A DNA stretch of 42,752 bases from positions 1 to 42,752 of the forward strand of contig NZ_NTMG01000051.1 in NCBI RefSeq assembly GCF_002487355.1. Direction: 5' to 3'. Below, piece after piece: positions 12,171-42,752 of the stretch (its first letter is position 1; each line of letters opens with the position of its first letter). Made by a program: the position numbers and the translations under genes. This DNA comes from Candidatus Methanoperedens sp. BLZ2 (GTDB taxonomy: Archaea; Halobacteriota; Methanosarcinia; Methanosarcinales; Methanoperedenaceae). The notes below the pieces were generated by a model that was not told the origin of the DNA, made no database searches, and saw only the letters and a program-made list of their open reading frames with translations.

Positions 12171-13585
12171 TGTACGAAAATCCTGATGGCGTAATGATAG
12201 GGCTTGAGGTTCACGTGCAATTGAACAAGCTAAAAACAAAGGTGTTCTGCGGATGCAGCACAGATTACCATAACGATCCGCCTAACTCGCATGTGTGTCC
12301 CGTGTGCCTGGGACTTCCGGGATCGCTGCCTGTGATCAACAGGAAAGCAGTTGAAGCAGCCATAAAAATCGGGCTTGCCCTTAACTGCAAGGTGGAAGAG
12401 CATACACAGTTTTACAGGAAGAACTACTATTATCCTGATCTTCCCAAAGGCTTCCAGATAACGCAGTATGATTTTCCCATTTCAAGCGGCGGCTACATAA
12501 TGATTGAAGGTGAAGATGGAGAACACAGGGTGGGAATAACGCGGGCTCACATGGAAGAAGACCCAGGCAGGCTTGTGCATGAAGGAACGATCGACAAATC
12601 AAAATATACGCTTATCGATTACAACCGTTCAGGGATGGCCCTGATCGAGATTGTAAGCGATCCTGATATGCGAAGCCCGAAAGAGGCGCGCAGATATCTT
12701 GACAAGCTGAGGAATATCCTTGAATATCTTGATATTTTCGACGGGGATCTTGAAGGCGCACTCAGGGTTGACGCCAACATTTCCATCATGGGCGGCCAGC
12801 GCGCCGAGATAAAGAACATCTCATCGCACAAAGGCGCAGAACGCGCGCTTTTGTTTGAGATCGTGCGCCAGAAGAACGTGCTCAGGAGGGGCGGCGTGGT
12901 AGTCCAGGAAACCCGCCATTTTGACGAGGCGCGCGAGATCACGCTTTCCATGCGCTCCAAAGAAGAAGCGCATGATTACCGATATTTCCCGGAACCTGAC
13001 CTTGTGCCGCTCAAGATATCAGGCTGGGCGCCTGCGATAAAGGAAATGCTGCCAGAGCTGCCTGATGCAAGAAGGATGAGATTCGTGGAGCAATACGGTA
13101 TCATGGATGACCATGCCAAGGCGCTCACATCTGAGCGCAAAGTTGCGATATTCTACGAAGAGGTCGCAAAAATCGCCGATCCGAAAATATCAGCAGTCTG
13201 GATATGCGATGTTCTCAAAGGTGAACTGAATTACCGCGACCTGACTATCGAGGCTTTCAGGAAAGAGGATATGCTTTCTGTTATAGAGCTGCTCATGAGC
13301 AAGAAAATAACAGAGGATGGAGCAGTTGATATTATCAGGACTCTCCTTGATAAAGGCGGCTCGCCCGAAGAGATCGTGAAAGAAAAAGGTCTTCTGAAAG
13401 TGGAAGGCGATATCGTTTCAACGGCGGCAGAAGAAGCCATCAAAGAGAATCCGGTCGCTGTTTCTGATTTTAAAGCAGGGAAGGAAAAGGCGCTCAACTC
13501 GCTTGTGGGATCTGTTATGAAGAAGACGAAAGGAAGGGCGGATGCGAGAGCGGCGCGGGAGATATTGCTGGGGAAGCTGGGGTAG
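12170..13585 (+). CDS. gatB: Asp/Glu-tRNA amidotransferase subunit B
   Basis: A 471-residue GatB. It binds mischarged tRNA, activates the side chain with ATP and transfers ammonia. The start MYENPDGVMIGLEVHVQL and the cysteine cluster FCGCSTDYHN...CPVCLGLPG (zinc-type site) are family hallmarks, followed by KNYYYPDLPKGFQITQYD and a C-terminal YqeY-like helical domain that contacts tRNA. Start and stop leave the usual length. It overlaps gatA by one base and closes the operon. GatB rather than GatE at this locus, so archaeal GatDE must be elsewhere if present. Confidence 0.97.
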   Translation: MYENPDGVMIGLEVHVQLNKLKTKVFCGCSTDYHNDPPNSHVCPVCLGLPGSLPVINRKAVEAAIKIGLALNCKVEEHTQFYRKNYYYPDLPKGFQITQYDFPISSGGYIMIEGEDGEHRVGITRAHMEEDPGRLVHEGTIDKSKYTLIDYNRSGMALIEIVSDPDMRSPKEARRYLDKLRNILEYLDIFDGDLEGALRVDANISIMGGQRAEIKNISSHKGAERALLFEIVRQKNVLRRGGVVVQETRHFDEAREITLSMRSKEEAHDYRYFPEPDLVPLKISGWAPAIKEMLPELPDARRMRFVEQYGIMDDHAKALTSERKVAIFYEEVAKIADPKISAVWICDVLKGELNYRDLTIEAFRKEDMLSVIELLMSKKITEDGAVDIIRTLLDKGGSPEEIVKEKGLLKVEGDIVSTAAEEAIKENPVAVSDFKAGKEKALNSLVGSVMKKTKGRADARAAREILLGKLG

Positions 13586-37310: not shown

Positions 37311-38759
37311 CTAAGCCGTGCTTGTAGAACCAGATACAGGTCTCATCCACATATCTGATATGCTGGAAAACATATCCGTATATGCTCTGGCTGCTTTCTT
37401 TACAGGTTCCACCACAGGTTTTATCGGACTCATTACAGGTACATACGTAAAGAAATCATCAAAAGCCCTTTCATACATACTTACCCAGGAGTTATAGGTA
37501 TTCAGGTTAACCTCCATAATCTTCGTAAAACTATCAGTTATCTCCTTTGAAGCGGATCTGACAGACTCGATATTGAATAGCCTGTCATAGGTATTCCTGT
37601 ACGTATCGATCCACAGGTCATAAAATTCCTTGTATGCTTCCGGTCTGGCTTCTCCCCTGGATAGCTCTGCCATTTTTTCGGAAAACGATGGCATTGAATC
37701 AACCCATGGGCGGAATAAATGCTGGTAGGAATCATTCCAGAGTTTTGCTATCTGTGCAAAGTTCCTGAAATAGATATTTGGCATGCCTCCATAGTTCTCA
37801 AAGATAACTGCTGTACTTCCCTTAGTCGGCATTTCGATAAAATCCTGGAATATTTTTTCGTACGTTCTTGTCCACGTATTATAGAGTTCTCTATATTTCC
37901 CTGGATCAGGTGTGCCCTGGAGCAATTCCTGCGTCATCCTGGAATTCTCATCTAACAGGTCAATCCATGATTGGAAGAGATTTTTTGATTCCTCTGCGCT
38001 TTCCTTCAGTTTCTCAAGTGTTTCTTTATCAAACTGCTGCGTCATGCCCGGATAAAGTTTACCAAAGGTGTTCTGGTACGTCCTGATCCATTCATCATAG
38101 AATGACTTATAATTCTCAGGTGTAGCATTTATTGAGAGTTCAGCCGCCTTACTGTACAGCTCTACTGTGGATTCAATCCATGGCTTTTGCAGGTTAGTTG
38201 AGAAGTCCTCTACTATTCTTGAAACTGCGGCATAGCTACCTGACATTACCTGAGAGATATCTCTCTTTTCTTCACCTTCTTTTTTCACCTCTTTTGCCCG
38301 CCTCTCTTGCTCCGTTATGGAAATGATCTCTTCAATATTCTTTCCTTCTTTTAATAGCTCTTGTATCGGTTTATTATATAGGCTTTCAGTCTGTCTTTCC
38401 TGTTCATACCTTTCCTGCTCTTCTCTATAACGTCTCTCCTGGTCTTCCGGACTTGGTCTTTCTATTATTGTTCTTCTCTCTTCCCACCAAGAAGATGTAG
38501 ATGTTGGGATATCCCTGCGAGCCTCTGTCTTGAAAACTTCTTTTCCTTCTTCGCTTTCTACCCCTATTGGTTCCTCAGATTCGCTCTCTACCCCTATTGG
38601 TTCCTCAGATTCGTATTTCTCTTCTTCGAATCTTTCCGGCTCTTGAGGTCCTTCTGTTATGTATCCTTCCCCCTTCTCTTGTTCTAATCTTTCCTGTTCT
38701 TCTCTGTAATGCTTTTCCTGATCTTCCAGTCTTGGTCTTTCAATTCTTCTTCGGGCCAT
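37311..38759 (-). CDS. phaE: PhaE-like class III polyhydroxyalkanoate synthase subunit
   Basis: A 482-residue cytoplasmic protein. The C-terminal ~330 residues match the PhaE pattern: repeated aromatic-rich helices such as YKSFYDEWIRTYQNTFGKLY, YRELYNTWTRTYEKIF and YKEFYDLWIDTYRNTYDRLF, with SWVSMYERAFDDFF near the end. PhaE activates PhaC in class III PHA synthases. The first ~150 residues are a charged, disordered or coiled-coil region with repeats of R-P-x-x-E-D-Q-E-(K/R) and EEPIGVESE. ATG 38759 is chosen because AGGGAG lies ~10 bases upstream; the frame is open to 38810. No phaC is in the window. PHA synthesis is reported for Methanoperedens, which supports the call. Confidence 0.8.
   Translation of the reverse strand: MARRRIERPRLEDQEKHYREEQERLEQEKGEGYITEGPQEPERFEEEKYESEEPIGVESESEEPIGVESEEGKEVFKTEARRDIPTSTSSWWEERRTIIERPSPEDQERRYREEQERYEQERQTESLYNKPIQELLKEGKNIEEIISITEQERRAKEVKKEGEEKRDISQVMSGSYAAVSRIVEDFSTNLQKPWIESTVELYSKAAELSINATPENYKSFYDEWIRTYQNTFGKLYPGMTQQFDKETLEKLKESAEESKNLFQSWIDLLDENSRMTQELLQGTPDPGKYRELYNTWTRTYEKIFQDFIEMPTKGSTAVIFENYGGMPNIYFRNFAQIAKLWNDSYQHLFRPWVDSMPSFSEKMAELSRGEARPEAYKEFYDLWIDTYRNTYDRLFNIESVRSASKEITDSFTKIMEVNLNTYNSWVSMYERAFDDFFTYVPVMSPIKPVVEPVKKAARAYTDMFSSISDMWMRPVSGSTSTA
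38551..38610. repeat. 30-bp tandem duplication inside the phaE-like gene
   Basis: Two adjacent 30-base units (38551-38580 and 38581-38610) differ at only one base (TCGCTTTCTACC... against TCGCTCTCTACC...). They encode a 10-residue repeat (EEPIGVESES-like) in the disordered N-terminal region. The near identity points to a recent replication-slippage event, probably variable between strains. Confidence 0.9.
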
Positions 38760-38908
38760 ACTATTCACACTCCCTTTAGTTACGTTATTGAGTTTAGTAT
38801 TATATAGCAATATTAGATAAGGATTACGGTTATGTTATGCCAGGAAGCGCTGTTACGGAAGCGTTAGTTTAAAGTAACCCAAGAGATATTTAACGTCACT
38901 TCCCTTGT

Positions 38909-38991
38909 GCGGGGATAACCAAGCGGCCAAAGGTGCAGGACTTAAGATCCTGTCTCGCAGGAGTTCGTGGGTTCAAATCCCATTCCCCGCA
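38909..38991 (+). tRNA. tRNA-Leu (anticodon TAA)
   Basis: An 83-base class II tRNA: acceptor GCGGGGA/TCCCCGC with discriminator A, anticodon stem CAGGA/TCCTG around CTTAAGA (anticodon TAA), long variable arm (TCTCGCAGGAGTTC) and T arm with GGTTCAAATC. CCA is not encoded. It marks the boundary between the cofGH/phaE region and an accessory-looking stretch. Confidence 0.95.
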
Positions 38992-39011
38992 TAATGATTT
39001 TCTTAATGATT

Positions 39012-39201
39012 TTAATAGAATTGAAAAATTGAATCTTTGATATCATCAGGAACTTCTATGCTGTGTTCCTCAATCAATTTGCTCACAATCAAAACAGAGG
39101 TCTTCAAATAATATATCCTCGAAGACTTTTCCCGCTCTTGCTATCTGCAAATTGCTTTTTGCCCTTTTCAACCATACTTTAGCCTTGGCTACGTTTTTCA
39201 T
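39012..39201 (-). pseudogene. Broken HEPN-domain (HepT-like) toxin gene
   Basis: A minus-strand ATG at 39201 overlaps the nucleotidyltransferase gene end by 23 bases, as in MntA-HepT modules, and reads MKNVAKAKVWLKRAKSNLQI then FEDILFEDLCFDCEQ, a clear HEPN N-terminus, but stops at 39070 after 43 codons. A shifted frame continues SKLIEEHSIEVPDDIKDSIF and stops at 39012. Intact relatives have ~30-40 residues between these parts (including AAEKALKA) and a longer C-terminus with the R-x4-6-H catalytic motif, both missing here. Interpretation: internal deletion plus early stop, so the toxin/RNase partner is inactive. Confidence 0.72.
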
Positions 39202-39499
39202 AAACCACCTTCCCATATTTTGAAATTTCTTTATATATCATGAAAGGATTATCTTTCAGTTCTTCGAAACGCTCCGGGGTTTCAACAATAATATCGATAG
39301 GTACTCCAACACCATAGAGAAACCTATAAATCTGCTGGGCAAGTTTTCTTCTATGCGAGACATCTTTTTTAATTACGCATATATCATAATCACTTTCTTT
39401 CTTATTATCGCCTCGCGCGCGTGAACCGAAAAGAATGATTTTATCAGGATTTATCGACCGGATTATAATTTCTATTGCTATATCAAGCGGGTTTGTCAT
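39179..39499 (-). CDS. MNT-domain nucleotidyltransferase (MntA-like antitoxin)
   Basis: A 106-residue minimal nucleotidyltransferase. The catalytic loop is LFGSRARGDNKKESDYDICV (GS-x10-D-x-D form), with the third Asp in VPIDIIVETPE. Such proteins pair with HEPN toxins and inactivate them, for example by AMP transfer to a Tyr. ATG 39499 is preferred because GAGG lies 9 bases upstream; ATG 39505 and TTG 39514 are in frame. The HEPN gene overlaps its 3' end but is broken, so the antitoxin-type gene has lost its partner here. Confidence 0.87.
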   Translation of the reverse strand: MTNPLDIAIEIIIRSINPDKIILFGSRARGDNKKESDYDICVIKKDVSHRRKLAQQIYRFLYGVGVPIDIIVETPERFEELKDNPFMIYKEISKYGKVVYEKRSQG

Positions 39500-39619
39500 T
39501 TTCATTTTCCTCAAATTGCTTCTTTAGATAATTAGGTATATTTTATGACCTGAATTCGTATGGCATTATAATGGTGATTTATATACATTATCTTTTTTAT
39601 CCCTGATACCTTAATAAAA

Positions 39620-39686
39620 GATGGGTGAGCCCATCCACCCGCCGCCCCTGCATCCCTAACGGCGCGATGGATTGGGGTATTGGGCG
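39620..39686. repeat. GC-rich intergenic repeat, copy A
   Basis: A GC-rich island within AT-rich spacer DNA (39515-39753). It has a perfect 6-bp hairpin GATGGG-TGAG-CCCATC (39620-39635) and, at 39649-39686, a segment starting TGCATCCCT and containing GATTGGGG and ATTGGGCG that matches copy B at 41770-41807 in the same orientation, roughly three quarters of positions by eye. No protein is evident. Probably a small non-coding repeat or RNA-like element. Confidence 0.45.
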
Positions 39687-39753
39687 AAGAATATACATCT
39701 CATACACATAACTATTTTAAATTTTAATATAATTTTATTAGAAGGATAATTAA

Positions 39754-39873
39754 ATGGACAGGTTGATTGTGTGGGAGTGTTATGGAAAAAAGTTATTCAA
39801 CCTGCCCTCAATATATTGTATGATTATAATTATACTTATATCTTGCGATTTAGTTCTTGTTAATGAGAAATGA
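39754..39873 (+). CDS. Possible 39-residue membrane peptide
   Basis: ATG at 39754 preceded by AGAAGGAT with 6 bases of spacing, and a TATA-like AT-rich stretch (TTTAATATAA) ~25-30 bases further upstream. The product starts MDRLIVWECYGKKLFN and has one hydrophobic stretch (YCMIIIILISCDLVLV), then a short charged end. No family recognised. An internal inverted repeat CAGGTTGA (39759-39766) / TCAACCTG (39797-39804) could instead mean a structured RNA. It lies opposite to, and ends 9 bases before, the deacetylase gene end. Confidence 0.35.
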   Translation: MDRLIVWECYGKKLFNLPSIYCMIIIILISCDLVLVNEK

Positions 39874-39881
39874 TACCTCTG

Positions 39882-40907
39882 TCAAGCATAGAACCTCCTG
39901 AGAAATTCTACAATTTTTTCAAAAATACTTTTTTCTGGTTCTTTTGTAATATTCTCCTGGTTATTTACTGCTACCCAACCACCACTGGATATTTGAATAT
40001 TAAGATCCGGTGTTTCAGCAGATTTTGGCGTGGCAACCTCTATTGGTTGTGTTTCAGCAGGTATATAGTATACTCTCTCAATAGTATAGTCGGACCTGGT
40101 ATTTTTTGGTGCTGCTGGAATACCAGCAACCGGAGAATTAGTGATTATTGGTACTACCCCAAAATAATCTGATAATGTACGTACATCAACATTTCTACTC
40201 TTTAGATAATTGCTGACCTTCTGAAAATCTGATGTCGTGAATTCTGTTTCTGCATTTGTAGCATTTGCAGACAGAGTATCTACTATCTTGTGGAATGCTA
40301 ATATCAATAATCCATTGGATGCAATTGTATTATCGATCTGATTTATAATTGTAGTATCATTGTCCTGTCCACCTATAACCTCATAACTCTTAAGGCTAAA
40401 TATATCCGGACTGCTCAAATTATAATGCATATTGTTTGTTGAAGCTTCAATTGTTCTTGCTGCAACATACCCGTTGGCTTTTAATGCTGCTATTACGTTA
40501 GAGTTATAGTCCCCATACGGGTACGCCAACAACATCGCACCTCCTGGATATCCATTTGCATTCAACCAGTCCTTACTTGCAGCCAATTCATAATTTAATG
40601 TTGTATTATTCGCTGTTGTGAGAGCTATATGCGAGTATGTATGGCTTGATATATCCCAGCCTGCCGCATATAATGTGTTTAATTGGGACCGCTGAGTAAA
40701 GTCTGACCATCCTCCTAATATTGGATCAATAATGACAAAGTCTACACCCTTTTGATTGTTAGCTTGCATTATTGGATATGCCTTATTATAAACAGACAAC
40801 CATCCATCATCAAATGTAATTATCACTGTTGGTCTTTCTGCTGCTCCCACCATAGTTAAAAACATTAAACAAATCGTAATTCCGATTAATATTTTTGTTT
40901 TACTCAT
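39882..40907 (-). CDS. Secreted polysaccharide deacetylase (NodB-like, CE4)
   Basis: A 341-residue exported enzyme that removes acetyl or similar groups from surface polysaccharide. Signal peptide: KTKILIGITICLMFLTMVGAAE. The NodB domain (~28-255) shows the TFDDGW motif, the metal-binding S-H-T-x-S-H (DISSHTYSH), the AYPYGDYN region and a late LAFHKI His. The last ~90 residues are a linker and a basic amphipathic helix (FEKIVEFLRRFYA) that may touch the membrane. It shares direction with the lipoprotein at 40940, 32 bases upstream, so they likely form an operon. Both are of a kind common in bacteria, so transfer from bacteria is plausible. Confidence 0.92.
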   Translation of the reverse strand: MSKTKILIGITICLMFLTMVGAAERPTVIITFDDGWLSVYNKAYPIMQANNQKGVDFVIIDPILGGWSDFTQRSQLNTLYAAGWDISSHTYSHIALTTANNTTLNYELAASKDWLNANGYPGGAMLLAYPYGDYNSNVIAALKANGYVAARTIEASTNNMHYNLSSPDIFSLKSYEVIGGQDNDTTIINQIDNTIASNGLLILAFHKIVDTLSANATNAETEFTTSDFQKVSNYLKSRNVDVRTLSDYFGVVPIITNSPVAGIPAAPKNTRSDYTIERVYYIPAETQPIEVATPKSAETPDLNIQISSGGWVAVNNQENITKEPEKSIFEKIVEFLRRFYA

Positions 40908-40939
40908 AAATCCGCCTATATTATTTTTATTTTAATATT

Positions 40940-41584
40940 TTAATGTTCGCCGTCAATTCCAGAATCCCAGGCAATCCGGGATTGAGTAATTATTTCTGTC
41001 CATGGGCCATCTGGCACATTCCTGGATTCGATAAATTGCCAATTTATCTTGTCTATATCTTCCAATCCTAAATAATCTCGGACCGCAGGTGAAACGTCTA
41101 ATCCGGCGTTATCATTAATATCATTTTTTGGTTTACTATTGCCAAAAACATAGTCAATATCATCTATTTCAAATGGACCTACATCCTCCCATTGTGCATA
41201 AACAGTTTTATCGCCTTTAGTTATCTTTATCCATTTATTTTTGCAAATTGGTTCGCAAAACGACTCTTTCGATTTGTTGCTGCCATTTATATCAAAATCA
41301 TTATAAGGTAGCGCAAAATAAAACGGGTTTTCCTTCGGAATAAAATTTCCTGGATAGAAACCTTTTCTATCATAAGGATCGTCTATTCCACCAAAATGAT
41401 CCTTCCAGTTACTATCCCATGCACTCTGACTGTTCTGGATATAATTATTTTCATCAGTTGCATTTTCTCCGATCCAAAAAATTGTTACAGTAATATCCCT
41501 GTGCAAGGGATACTGATTGCTGCTCTTGTCCACACATCCGCTTAGAACCACTAAAAGAAAAATGAATAGACAGACAGGTCGCAT
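40940..41584 (-). CDS. Lipoprotein with likely double-psi beta-barrel (RlpA/expansin-like) domain
   Basis: A 214-residue surface lipoprotein. The signal ends in a lipobox, VCLFIFLLVVLSGCVD, with Cys17 as the lipid site. The C-terminal region has TVYAQWEDVGPFEIDD and GLDVSPAVRDYLGL, the pattern of double-psi barrel proteins (RlpA, expansin), which have a catalytic or structural Asp in the D-V-S-P segment. Two further Cys (CEPIC) could form a disulfide. It probably binds or cuts cell-surface glycan with the deacetylase downstream. The fold is inferred from the motif only. Confidence 0.68.
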   Translation of the reverse strand: MRPVCLFIFLLVVLSGCVDKSSNQYPLHRDITVTIFWIGENATDENNYIQNSQSAWDSNWKDHFGGIDDPYDRKGFYPGNFIPKENPFYFALPYNDFDINGSNKSKESFCEPICKNKWIKITKGDKTVYAQWEDVGPFEIDDIDYVFGNSKPKNDINDNAGLDVSPAVRDYLGLEDIDKINWQFIESRNVPDGPWTEIITQSRIAWDSGIDGEH

Positions 41585-42033
41585 TTTTACTCCTCTTTTC
41601 GAGCAATATCGCTAGTGATGTTTAATAAATGCTTGTGTTGTAAAGATATCGTTTCGGGTTATCCGGACGCATGTTCAATCATTTCAGCAACTTCATAAAA
41701 ACCCATCCTCCCACTCCCGGCGTCAATTATCGTATCTAACCCACCGATGCGCTCATTGACCTGCACCTTTGCATCCCTGGCTGCACACTGAATTGGGAGA
41801 TTGGGTGGTACTGCGCACTCCGAACCCTTAACAATTTTATTTCATTTTCTTTCTATAATAGTTATTATGCTCATTTTATATGATGGAAATGTATTTATTA
41901 CATGATAATTATAATCATTATATACGGGCATTTTTGCCATTCCTATCAATACATCTCGCCTGCTCTATCCAATCAATAAATCCTCTGGAATTAATAATAG
42001 CTGAACATCAGTCCGAAAGAAAAGAAGATAATT
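41585..42033. other. Non-coding stretch with GC-rich repeat copy B
   Basis: About 450 bases without a convincing gene. A GC-rich part (about 41690-41815) includes repeat copy B: 41770-41807 begins TGCATCCCT and contains AATTGGGA and ATTGGGTG, matching 39649-39686 as a direct repeat. The rest is AT-rich, with a near-palindrome ATGATAATTATAATCAT at 41902-41918. ORFs here (for example 41880-42074) lack ribosome sites and family features. Confidence 0.5.
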
Positions 42034-42429
42034 ATGACCCAAACAAAGAAAAGCATAATACGAGAGAAATCTGAGCGGACGGCTAATGAACCGGAACACA
42101 AAGATGACATATCGAATATTGTAACAACAATAATAAAAGAACCAGTAATAGGTTTCATAGTTTCGGCAGCTGAAAGAGATGACGGCTCTAAATTTCTGTG
42201 GGTCACCCCGATATCATTGAACTGGGAAGGTTTGCTCAATGATGAAGACCTGGATGCTCTTGTTTCTAAGGCATCGGTGCTTGGTGTTTTACCTGCACCA
42301 GTCGAATCATATAAAGTATTTGGGTCAGATGCCCAGAATGATGAACTAAAAGCGCTTGGGTTTGAATTCAAAGGATGTTATCATCCTGAGTGGATAAAGG
42401 AATTCAAAAATAAGTTAAACCCGGATTGA
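42034..42429 (+). CDS. Hypothetical 131-residue protein
   Basis: Not recognised. A hydrophilic cytoplasmic protein with an N-terminal charged segment (~25 residues) and a compact domain after it: EPVIGFIVSAAERDDGSKFL, WVTPISLNWEGLLNDEDLDA and a C-terminus with GFEFKGCYHPEWIKEF. Codon use is like its neighbours. The ribosome site is weak (AAGAAGATAA region). It reads like a genuine coding ORF because of its composition, but no function can be given. The following 323 bases to the window end are empty. Confidence 0.55.
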   Translation: MTQTKKSIIREKSERTANEPEHKDDISNIVTTIIKEPVIGFIVSAAERDDGSKFLWVTPISLNWEGLLNDEDLDALVSKASVLGVLPAPVESYKVFGSDAQNDELKALGFEFKGCYHPEWIKEFKNKLNPD

Positions 42430-42752
42430 AAATAAGAGTTTATGACCGTTTCCCATTGTCTCAGATTACTACCATAGGTACGAAAAAAGCGAATGTAGAG
42501 TTAGAACAAAGTTCTCCACAGCAGAACTGTTTGGTATATTCATCAAAATCAAACCCAAAGAAACCAGCACAATAATCCTTAATAACGCAATTACTTTGAA
42601 ATTATGCTGGAAGGAGGGCTTTCTTGTTTTATGCTTGAAGATCATCACAATTTATCGATGCCATAAATCAGGAAGGGCAAGATCTGGAGTGCTTAATTAG
42701 GGAGTGTAATCTTTTTTGCTGAAACTATCCTTATGAATATCCCTTCATATTT
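42430..42752. other. No recognisable gene to the window end
   Basis: No supported coding region is seen. One frame (about 42432-42575) is open and reads KIRVYDRFPLSQITTIGTKK at its start, but it has no start codon with a ribosome site and only ~45 codons, so it is at most a fragment. A GGAGG-containing stretch lies near 42610. Confidence 0.4.

Follow-up and report, generated by a model that had tools for sequence, protein, structure and literature searches.

We analyzed a gene pair for a polysaccharide deacetylase and a lipoprotein that lies beside a tRNA-Leu(TAA) gene in Candidatus Methanoperedens sp. BLZ2. The window is the whole stretch of DNA analyzed, 42,752 nucleotides of NZ_NTMG01000051.1, which is all of contig C9 of genome G000 (3.7 Mb, 85 contigs). 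It was compared with a set of 31 genomes of the genus, in which G000 is the window's own genome and the other G numbers are relatives. A sequence-only reading of the window had proposed that the pair is an acquired cassette in an insertion hotspot, bracketed by two direct repeats, A and B. The main features, as listed from open reading frames (ORFs) of at least 80 amino acids (aa) and from RNA and family searches, are:

38908..38992, + strand, tRNA-Leu (anticodon TAA; ARAGORN, Rfam RF00005), whose 3' side is a variable junction
39649..39686, no strand, repeat A, probably a GC-rich relic, extended to 39631-39684 by homology to the B of G020
39882..40907, - strand, NodB-family polysaccharide deacetylase of 341 aa (PF01522, 4.7e-22) with a signal-like N-terminus seen by eye
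40940..41584, - strand, lipoprotein of 214 aa with a lipobox-like LSGC seen by eye and no family above the cut-off
41770..41807, no strand, repeat B, within 41662-41808, with an ortholog in G020 only
42034..42429, + strand, gene of 131 aa with no family, which accompanies the pair in G020 and G021

The two genes of the pair are on the same strand, the lipoprotein first and the deacetylase after a 32-bp gap, and they would form an ordinary two-gene unit, possibly an operon. B lies upstream and A downstream of them. The 131-aa gene is read divergently from the pair and adjoins it in G000, G020, and G021; we call the three genes together the block. Of the listed ORFs between the repeats, these two are taken as genes, as the sequence-only reading had it; the third ORF there (39870-40172, + strand) is antisense to the deacetylase gene and was not counted as a gene. 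The neighboring tRNA gene is also where that reading had placed it. To the left of about 33 kb, the window was covered by ORF, tRNA, composition, and Rfam listings.

The pair diverges at the rate of the backbone

We compared the codon-wise synonymous divergence (dS) of the block genes with that of a backbone set comprising CofH, CofG, a radical SAM gene, a CGS-type gene, and a dphB-like gene. The names CofG and dphB were given by eye; Pfam finds CofH_C and Radical_SAM, as well as TP_methylase (PF00590) in the dphB-like gene, and Cys_Met_Meta_PP (PF01053) in the CGS-type gene. A gene resembling a PHA synthase subunit (window 37311-38810; PF09712, 1.3e-7), which is situated between CofG and tRNA-Leu in G000 and G021 and is skipped in the G020 alignment, served as an additional backbone gene in the G000-G021 comparison.

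Between G000 and G020, dS was 0.117 for the deacetylase, 0.119 for the lipoprotein, and 0.075 for the 131-aa gene, and the backbone genes gave 0.080 (CofH), 0.137 (CofG), 0.127 (radical SAM), 0.125 (CGS-type), and 0.136 (dphB). The corresponding values between G000 and G021 were 0.313, 0.429, and 0.153 for the block and 0.256, 0.413, 0.308, 0.314, and 0.268 for the backbone, with 0.211 for the PHA-subunit-like gene. The lipoprotein of G003 differed from that of G000 by a dS of 0.365, compared with 0.39-0.43 for the CGS-type and dphB genes. The dS of the pair is backbone-like, and the deacetylase and lipoprotein genes therefore look vertically inherited within a small clade; G000, G020, G021, and G003, which resemble one another most at the CGS-type gene, all carry the lipoprotein. 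We had also considered transfer because G000 and G020 have a low raw DNA identity over the block (86.9%, versus 95.5% for the backbone). This explanation was rejected because codon-wise dS is backbone-like, so that spacer, gaps, and amino acid changes must account for the low raw identity.

The genes are patchy in the genus. Matches to the lipoprotein were found in five of the 31 genomes, to the deacetylase in six (at E <= 1e-20), and to the 131-aa gene in five, one of them merely 46% identical. A lipoprotein profile matched only one of 392 sampled Halobacteriota genomes, G000 itself, in a sample that did not include the other four carriers. Searches of phage records, plasmid records, and viral contigs gave no match. 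That the genes are bacterial-like, as the sequence-only reading held, was not established: in the searches made, which covered bacteria by a close-relative scan of genome contigs only, the lipoprotein was seen in genomes of this genus alone. Given the patchy distribution of the lipoprotein, the ancestor of the clade may have acquired it at an earlier time.

The block lies at different places in close relatives

The block changed place between G021 and G000. In G021, it lies away from tRNA-Leu, between the dphB-like gene and the CGS-type gene; it starts at the equivalent of 39754, directly against the dphB-like gene, and a TnpB-type insertion sequence (IS) takes the place of the B stretch. The 7.3 kb to the right of tRNA-Leu in this genome hold no lipoprotein. 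In G020, the block stands at a contig start and is followed by a 117-aa ORF and then by the CGS-type gene, as in G021. G000 carries its CGS-type gene 15 kb into contig C57, and the dphB-like gene is located on further contigs (C6 in G000, C33 in G020). G003 has the lipoprotein on C53 and the 131-aa gene on C49. Beside its lipoprotein is a 59-bp stretch like the end of the deacetylase gene (76%, E 6e-5), as though the gene had been largely deleted there. Related copies of the TnpB-type IS (72%) were seen at L069:~12245-13487, which is the place of B in G021, and at L138:7440-8484 in G000, about 0.5 kb from the CGS-type gene.

We consider it probable, on these data and those on the tRNA flank and the repeats given below, that the block contains an ordinary, vertically inherited gene pair which has changed its place and now lies at a real hotspot, and that A and B are decayed relics. 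A rearrangement would have brought the block to tRNA-Leu(TAA).

Several observations weigh against this history. The surroundings of the block differ among close genomes, which is unusual for a quiet gene pair. The pair is also patchy: the distant G005 has the lipoprotein, and G019, G004, and G002, which are closer than G005 by the CGS-type gene, do not. In G005 the lipoprotein and the deacetylase are on different contigs, and their dS (1.30 and 1.14) is lower than that of the CGS-type gene (2.5) and of dphB (saturated). These low values could reflect transfer, although dS is unreliable there. The best deacetylase of G003 is 50% identical and located elsewhere, so that the vertical descent of this gene rests on G000, G020, and G021. 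The dS of the 131-aa gene lies below that of the backbone in all three comparisons, including that with G003 (0.216), and the lipoprotein dS between G021 and G003 is 0.58, a pair of genomes with no backbone value. Finally, the direction of the move is uncertain, as the block of G020 may also lie near tRNA-Leu: its tRNA contig ends 1.8 kb past the tRNA, the contig of the block starts 0.1 kb before the block, and the two ends have a compatible orientation, with no overlap found between them.

tRNA-Leu(TAA) has a variable 3' flank

The flanks of tRNA-Leu(TAA) were compared in 25 of the 31 genomes (24 relatives and G000), omitting G003, G009, G014, G017, G022, and G023, where the locus was at the NTase gene described below or there was none. 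The left (5') side is syntenic in 16 of the 25: tblastx finds similarity among fourteen of them within 1.5 kb, and the other two, G000 and G021, match one another and also share the CofG/CofH region farther to the left. Several of the 24 relatives (among them G004, G008, G012, G015, G019, G027, G030, and G011), which do not belong to the 16, may have been matched at another leucine tRNA or had a left flank that was missing or unlike.

The right (3') side is mostly different among the 16. Within 1.5 kb, G006, G010, G016, and G026 are alike, G013 and G029 have a short segment in common, and no other pair matched at E 1e-5; for G028, G002, and G007, less than 1.5 kb of right flank was available. 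In five of the 16 (G006, G010, G016, G025, and G026), what by eye is one and the same gene follows the tRNA at a distance of 71 to 2855 nt. Two of these genes were checked and contain PF18490, to which the G016 gene adds a class II tRNA synthetase core, and we take the gene to encode seryl-tRNA synthetase. The contents of the gap between it and tRNA-Leu differ among the five genomes, and G016 looks like an empty site. In G018, a tyrosine integrase gene directly follows the tRNA, then come genes for DUF3987 and a family A DNA polymerase. On its contig C39, the last 20 bp of the tRNA gene are repeated exactly 33.3 kb away in the same orientation (L158:10680-10699 and L078:6947-6966), with an IS21 pair within the stretch. 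Because the 3' flank is variable and G018 combines an integrase with the exact 20-bp copy, this side of tRNA-Leu(TAA) is, on this comparison, a real insertion hotspot, and this part of the sequence-only reading stood. In a search for an empty site, the right flanks of 17 relatives (0.3 to 12 kb) held no lipoprotein, and a repeat copy outside G000 was found only in G020, at its own pair. The passages on integrase and tRNA in PMC9674854 do not describe this site.

The G018 segment raises the possibility that an integrated element carried the block in and has its far end past the end of the contig, with A and B being incidental. The contig of the window stops 0.3 kb after the 131-aa gene, which would fit such a truncation, and the possible location of the G020 block near the tRNA, where both contigs are broken, speaks for the same explanation. 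In the window, however, none of the ORFs of at least 80 aa between the tRNA and the contig end was identified as an integrase, and blastn-short found no second copy of the tRNA end there. Together with the backbone-like dS of the genes, this makes arrival as cargo unlikely. Under the preferred history of a vertically inherited pair, the hotspot would simply be where a rearrangement placed the block. In G000 the hotspot also holds a decayed NTase/HEPN module.

A and B are probably related to each other

Repeats A and B are present as the sequence-only reading described them. A (39649-39684) and B (41770-41805) have the same orientation, their starts are 2121 nt apart, and an ungapped alignment gives 27 identities in 36 positions (75%). 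The region of A (39626-39690) has a GC content of 65%, compared with 26% in the adjoining stretch, and the stretch that includes B (41662-41808) can be read as the last part of a - strand open frame. In narrow windows, the A-B score was reached by 6 of 2000 dinucleotide shuffles, and with larger flanks (1007 x 450 nt) by 70 of 500, so the match on its own is weak. G020 has a B at the orthologous position, and this copy aligns to A with a score of 40 that none of 2000 shuffles equaled. By blastn against the collected loci the alignment spans 54 bp (74%, E 0.004).

The similarity of A and B could be due to chance, with both being merely GC-rich spacer. The frequency with which the larger-flank shuffles reach the observed score would be expected under this explanation, as would the fact that neither stretch has an RNA family, a protein family, or a fold better than shuffles. 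Against it stand the alignment of the G020 copy to A and an extra 45-50 nt in the B of G000 that are absent from both A and the G020 copy. Because the orthologous B of G020 aligns better to A, common ancestry beyond chance is probable, and we regard a chance resemblance as distinctly unlikely. A is 75% like B and aligns better to the B of G020; it therefore appears to be no recent copy of the adjoining B.

We searched the 31 genomes with a pattern made from the three copies (A, B, and the B of G020), allowing up to three mismatches. It matched twice in G000, both times at this locus, once in G020, and never in the other 29 genomes, and the reversed pattern gave no match. A was thus detected in G000 only and B in G000 and G020 only; a search for further copies in the genome had been proposed as a check on the sequence-only reading, and at this threshold none were found. 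Two findings had been named that would speak against that reading, vertical inheritance of the genes and repeats that are widespread; dS supports the first within the clade, and the repeats turned out to be rare.

The same data bear on the proposal that A and B are the ends of a composite mobile cassette carrying exactly the pair. The shared orientation of the repeats, their exact bracketing of the two genes, and their probable homology are what such a cassette would predict. However, the pair of G021 has neither repeat and an IS in place of the B stretch. The assembly of G020 contains B but lacks A, although the contig breaks close to the expected place of A, and the DNA that G020 shares with G000 extends past B as far as the 131-aa gene. 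Between the tRNA and the contig end, none of the ORFs was identified as a transposase. A is 75% like the adjoining B and aligns better to the G020 copy, which argues against a recent duplication. The proposed cassette is, in our estimate, very unlikely, and its acquisition is at odds with the backbone-like dS. Alternatively, A and B could be end relics of a small mobile unit, so far undescribed, by which the genes for the lipoprotein, the deacetylase, and the 131-aa protein are moved jointly or one at a time between chromosomal sites of Methanoperedens. This idea draws on the different surroundings of the block in G000 and G021 and on the separate sites of the lipoprotein and the 131-aa gene in G003, and we give it very little weight. 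On the history that we prefer, A and B would be decayed copies of one short sequence, and nothing shows that they moved anything.

Candidate identities for A and B were tried and rejected. As coding relics, they were suggested by the - strand of B, which reads PPNLPIQ...EHASG and then a stop, and by A and the B of G020, which are readable alike. Searches of Pfam, NCBIfam, plasmid records, viral contigs, and genome contigs gave no relative above the thresholds. The sole PHROGs line (phrog_12569, E 0.027) and hits at E 0.2-0.7 among 99 relatives are too weak to identify a family, and that A and B are remains of a dead gene is a guess. As structured RNAs, they were not found by Rfam, which at gathering score returned only the two tRNAs of the window; one chance-level line is located away from both repeats, and their folds are no better than those of shuffles. 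B showed no resemblance to the TnpB-type IS (OrfB_IS605) at its place in G021, although no separate alignment of B to the IS was made.

Neighboring elements

Four smaller features lie between tRNA-Leu and the deacetylase gene:

38993..39215, - strand, HEPN toxin relic, frame-broken and missing 83 nt in comparison with its G003 counterpart, an open frame of 131 aa
39179..39514, - strand, MNT/MntA-like nucleotidyltransferase (NTase; Pfam NTP_transf_2, 9.1e-13; NCBIfam MntA, 40.5 bits with a cut-off of 60)
39619..39640, - strand, terminator-like hairpin at the edge of A, a weak call (two overlapping sites in a consensus scan of 39500-42100, versus 1.2 expected)
39754..39856, no strand, 103-nt block with an 11-bp inverted repeat and a 30-nt loop

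The broken toxin module that the sequence-only reading saw next to the pair is thus real: the HEPN partner of the NTase gene is not intact in the window, and the NTase gene, which is antitoxin-like, is patchy in the genus. Its dS to G003 is 0.824, versus 0.39-0.43 for the backbone. NTase-like DNA was also seen in G009, G017, G022, and G023.

The 103-nt block occurs in G021 beside the same gene and once more on contig C63 of G000, away from the pair, and its left edge is common to the three loci (the window, L069:10317-10413, and L079:5389-5487). Near the right end of the window, 25 bp (42698-42722) are an exact inverted match to bases 31-55 of G000 contig C57, and the two contigs may end in a shared repeat.

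Predicted functions of the pair

The deacetylase scores 78.7 bits against PF01522 (gathering score 23.1), and the stretches TFDDG, SHTYSH, AYPYGD, and AFHKI, which we take to be NodB-type motifs, read as intact by eye. NodB-type polysaccharide deacetylases belong to carbohydrate esterase family 4. Eight NCBIfam deacetylase models, including HfsH, IcaB, PdaB, and PgaB, match the protein weakly, each with a score under its cut-off. The protein is probably secreted and active on a polysaccharide, and could remove acetyl groups from a surface or matrix polysaccharide. A literature search for Methanoperedens and polysaccharide deacetylase found nothing.

The lipoprotein had no Pfam or NCBIfam match above cut-off. 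Its strongly conserved WEDVGPF and AGLDVSPAVRDYLG stretches recall RlpA-like barrels, which is a guess without Pfam support; Pfam gave no RlpA-like or double-psi barrel match, and no solved relative was found by sequence. Its structure model (pLDDT 39.8) was too low in confidence for a fold search. Adjacency in three genomes suggests that it might be a membrane-anchored partner of the deacetylase.

Comparison with known systems

Overall, our analysis corrects a tempting misreading, in which short GC-rich repeats that surround a gene pair near a tRNA gene are taken to bound a newly acquired cassette. A second outcome is the record of tRNA-Leu(TAA) as a Methanoperedens insertion site, where one relative has a segment with an integrase and others have different cargo; this should help in tracking the mobile elements of these methane oxidizers.

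The locus differs from a composite transposon in that its repeats do not flank the cargo everywhere and, at up to three mismatches, have no matches elsewhere in the genome, and in the backbone-like dS of the cargo. The deacetylase resembles NodB-type enzymes in its PF01522 match above cut-off and, by eye, in its signal-like N-terminus and catalytic motifs; it differs in falling short of the eight NCBIfam deacetylase cut-offs. The order of an NTase gene followed by a HEPN gene is that of MntA-HepT (HEPN/MNT) modules, of which G003 has an open pair, but the HEPN gene of the window is broken. G026 has an NTase-HepT pair right after tRNA-Leu, which was not compared with that of the window. In contrast to tRNA-gene hotspots, which are integration sites of tyrosine recombinases, neither an integrase nor a second tRNA-end copy was found in the window before the contig ends. 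The site shares with them the syntenic 5' flank and the variable 3' flank, and the integrase and 20-bp copy of G018 place the site among them.

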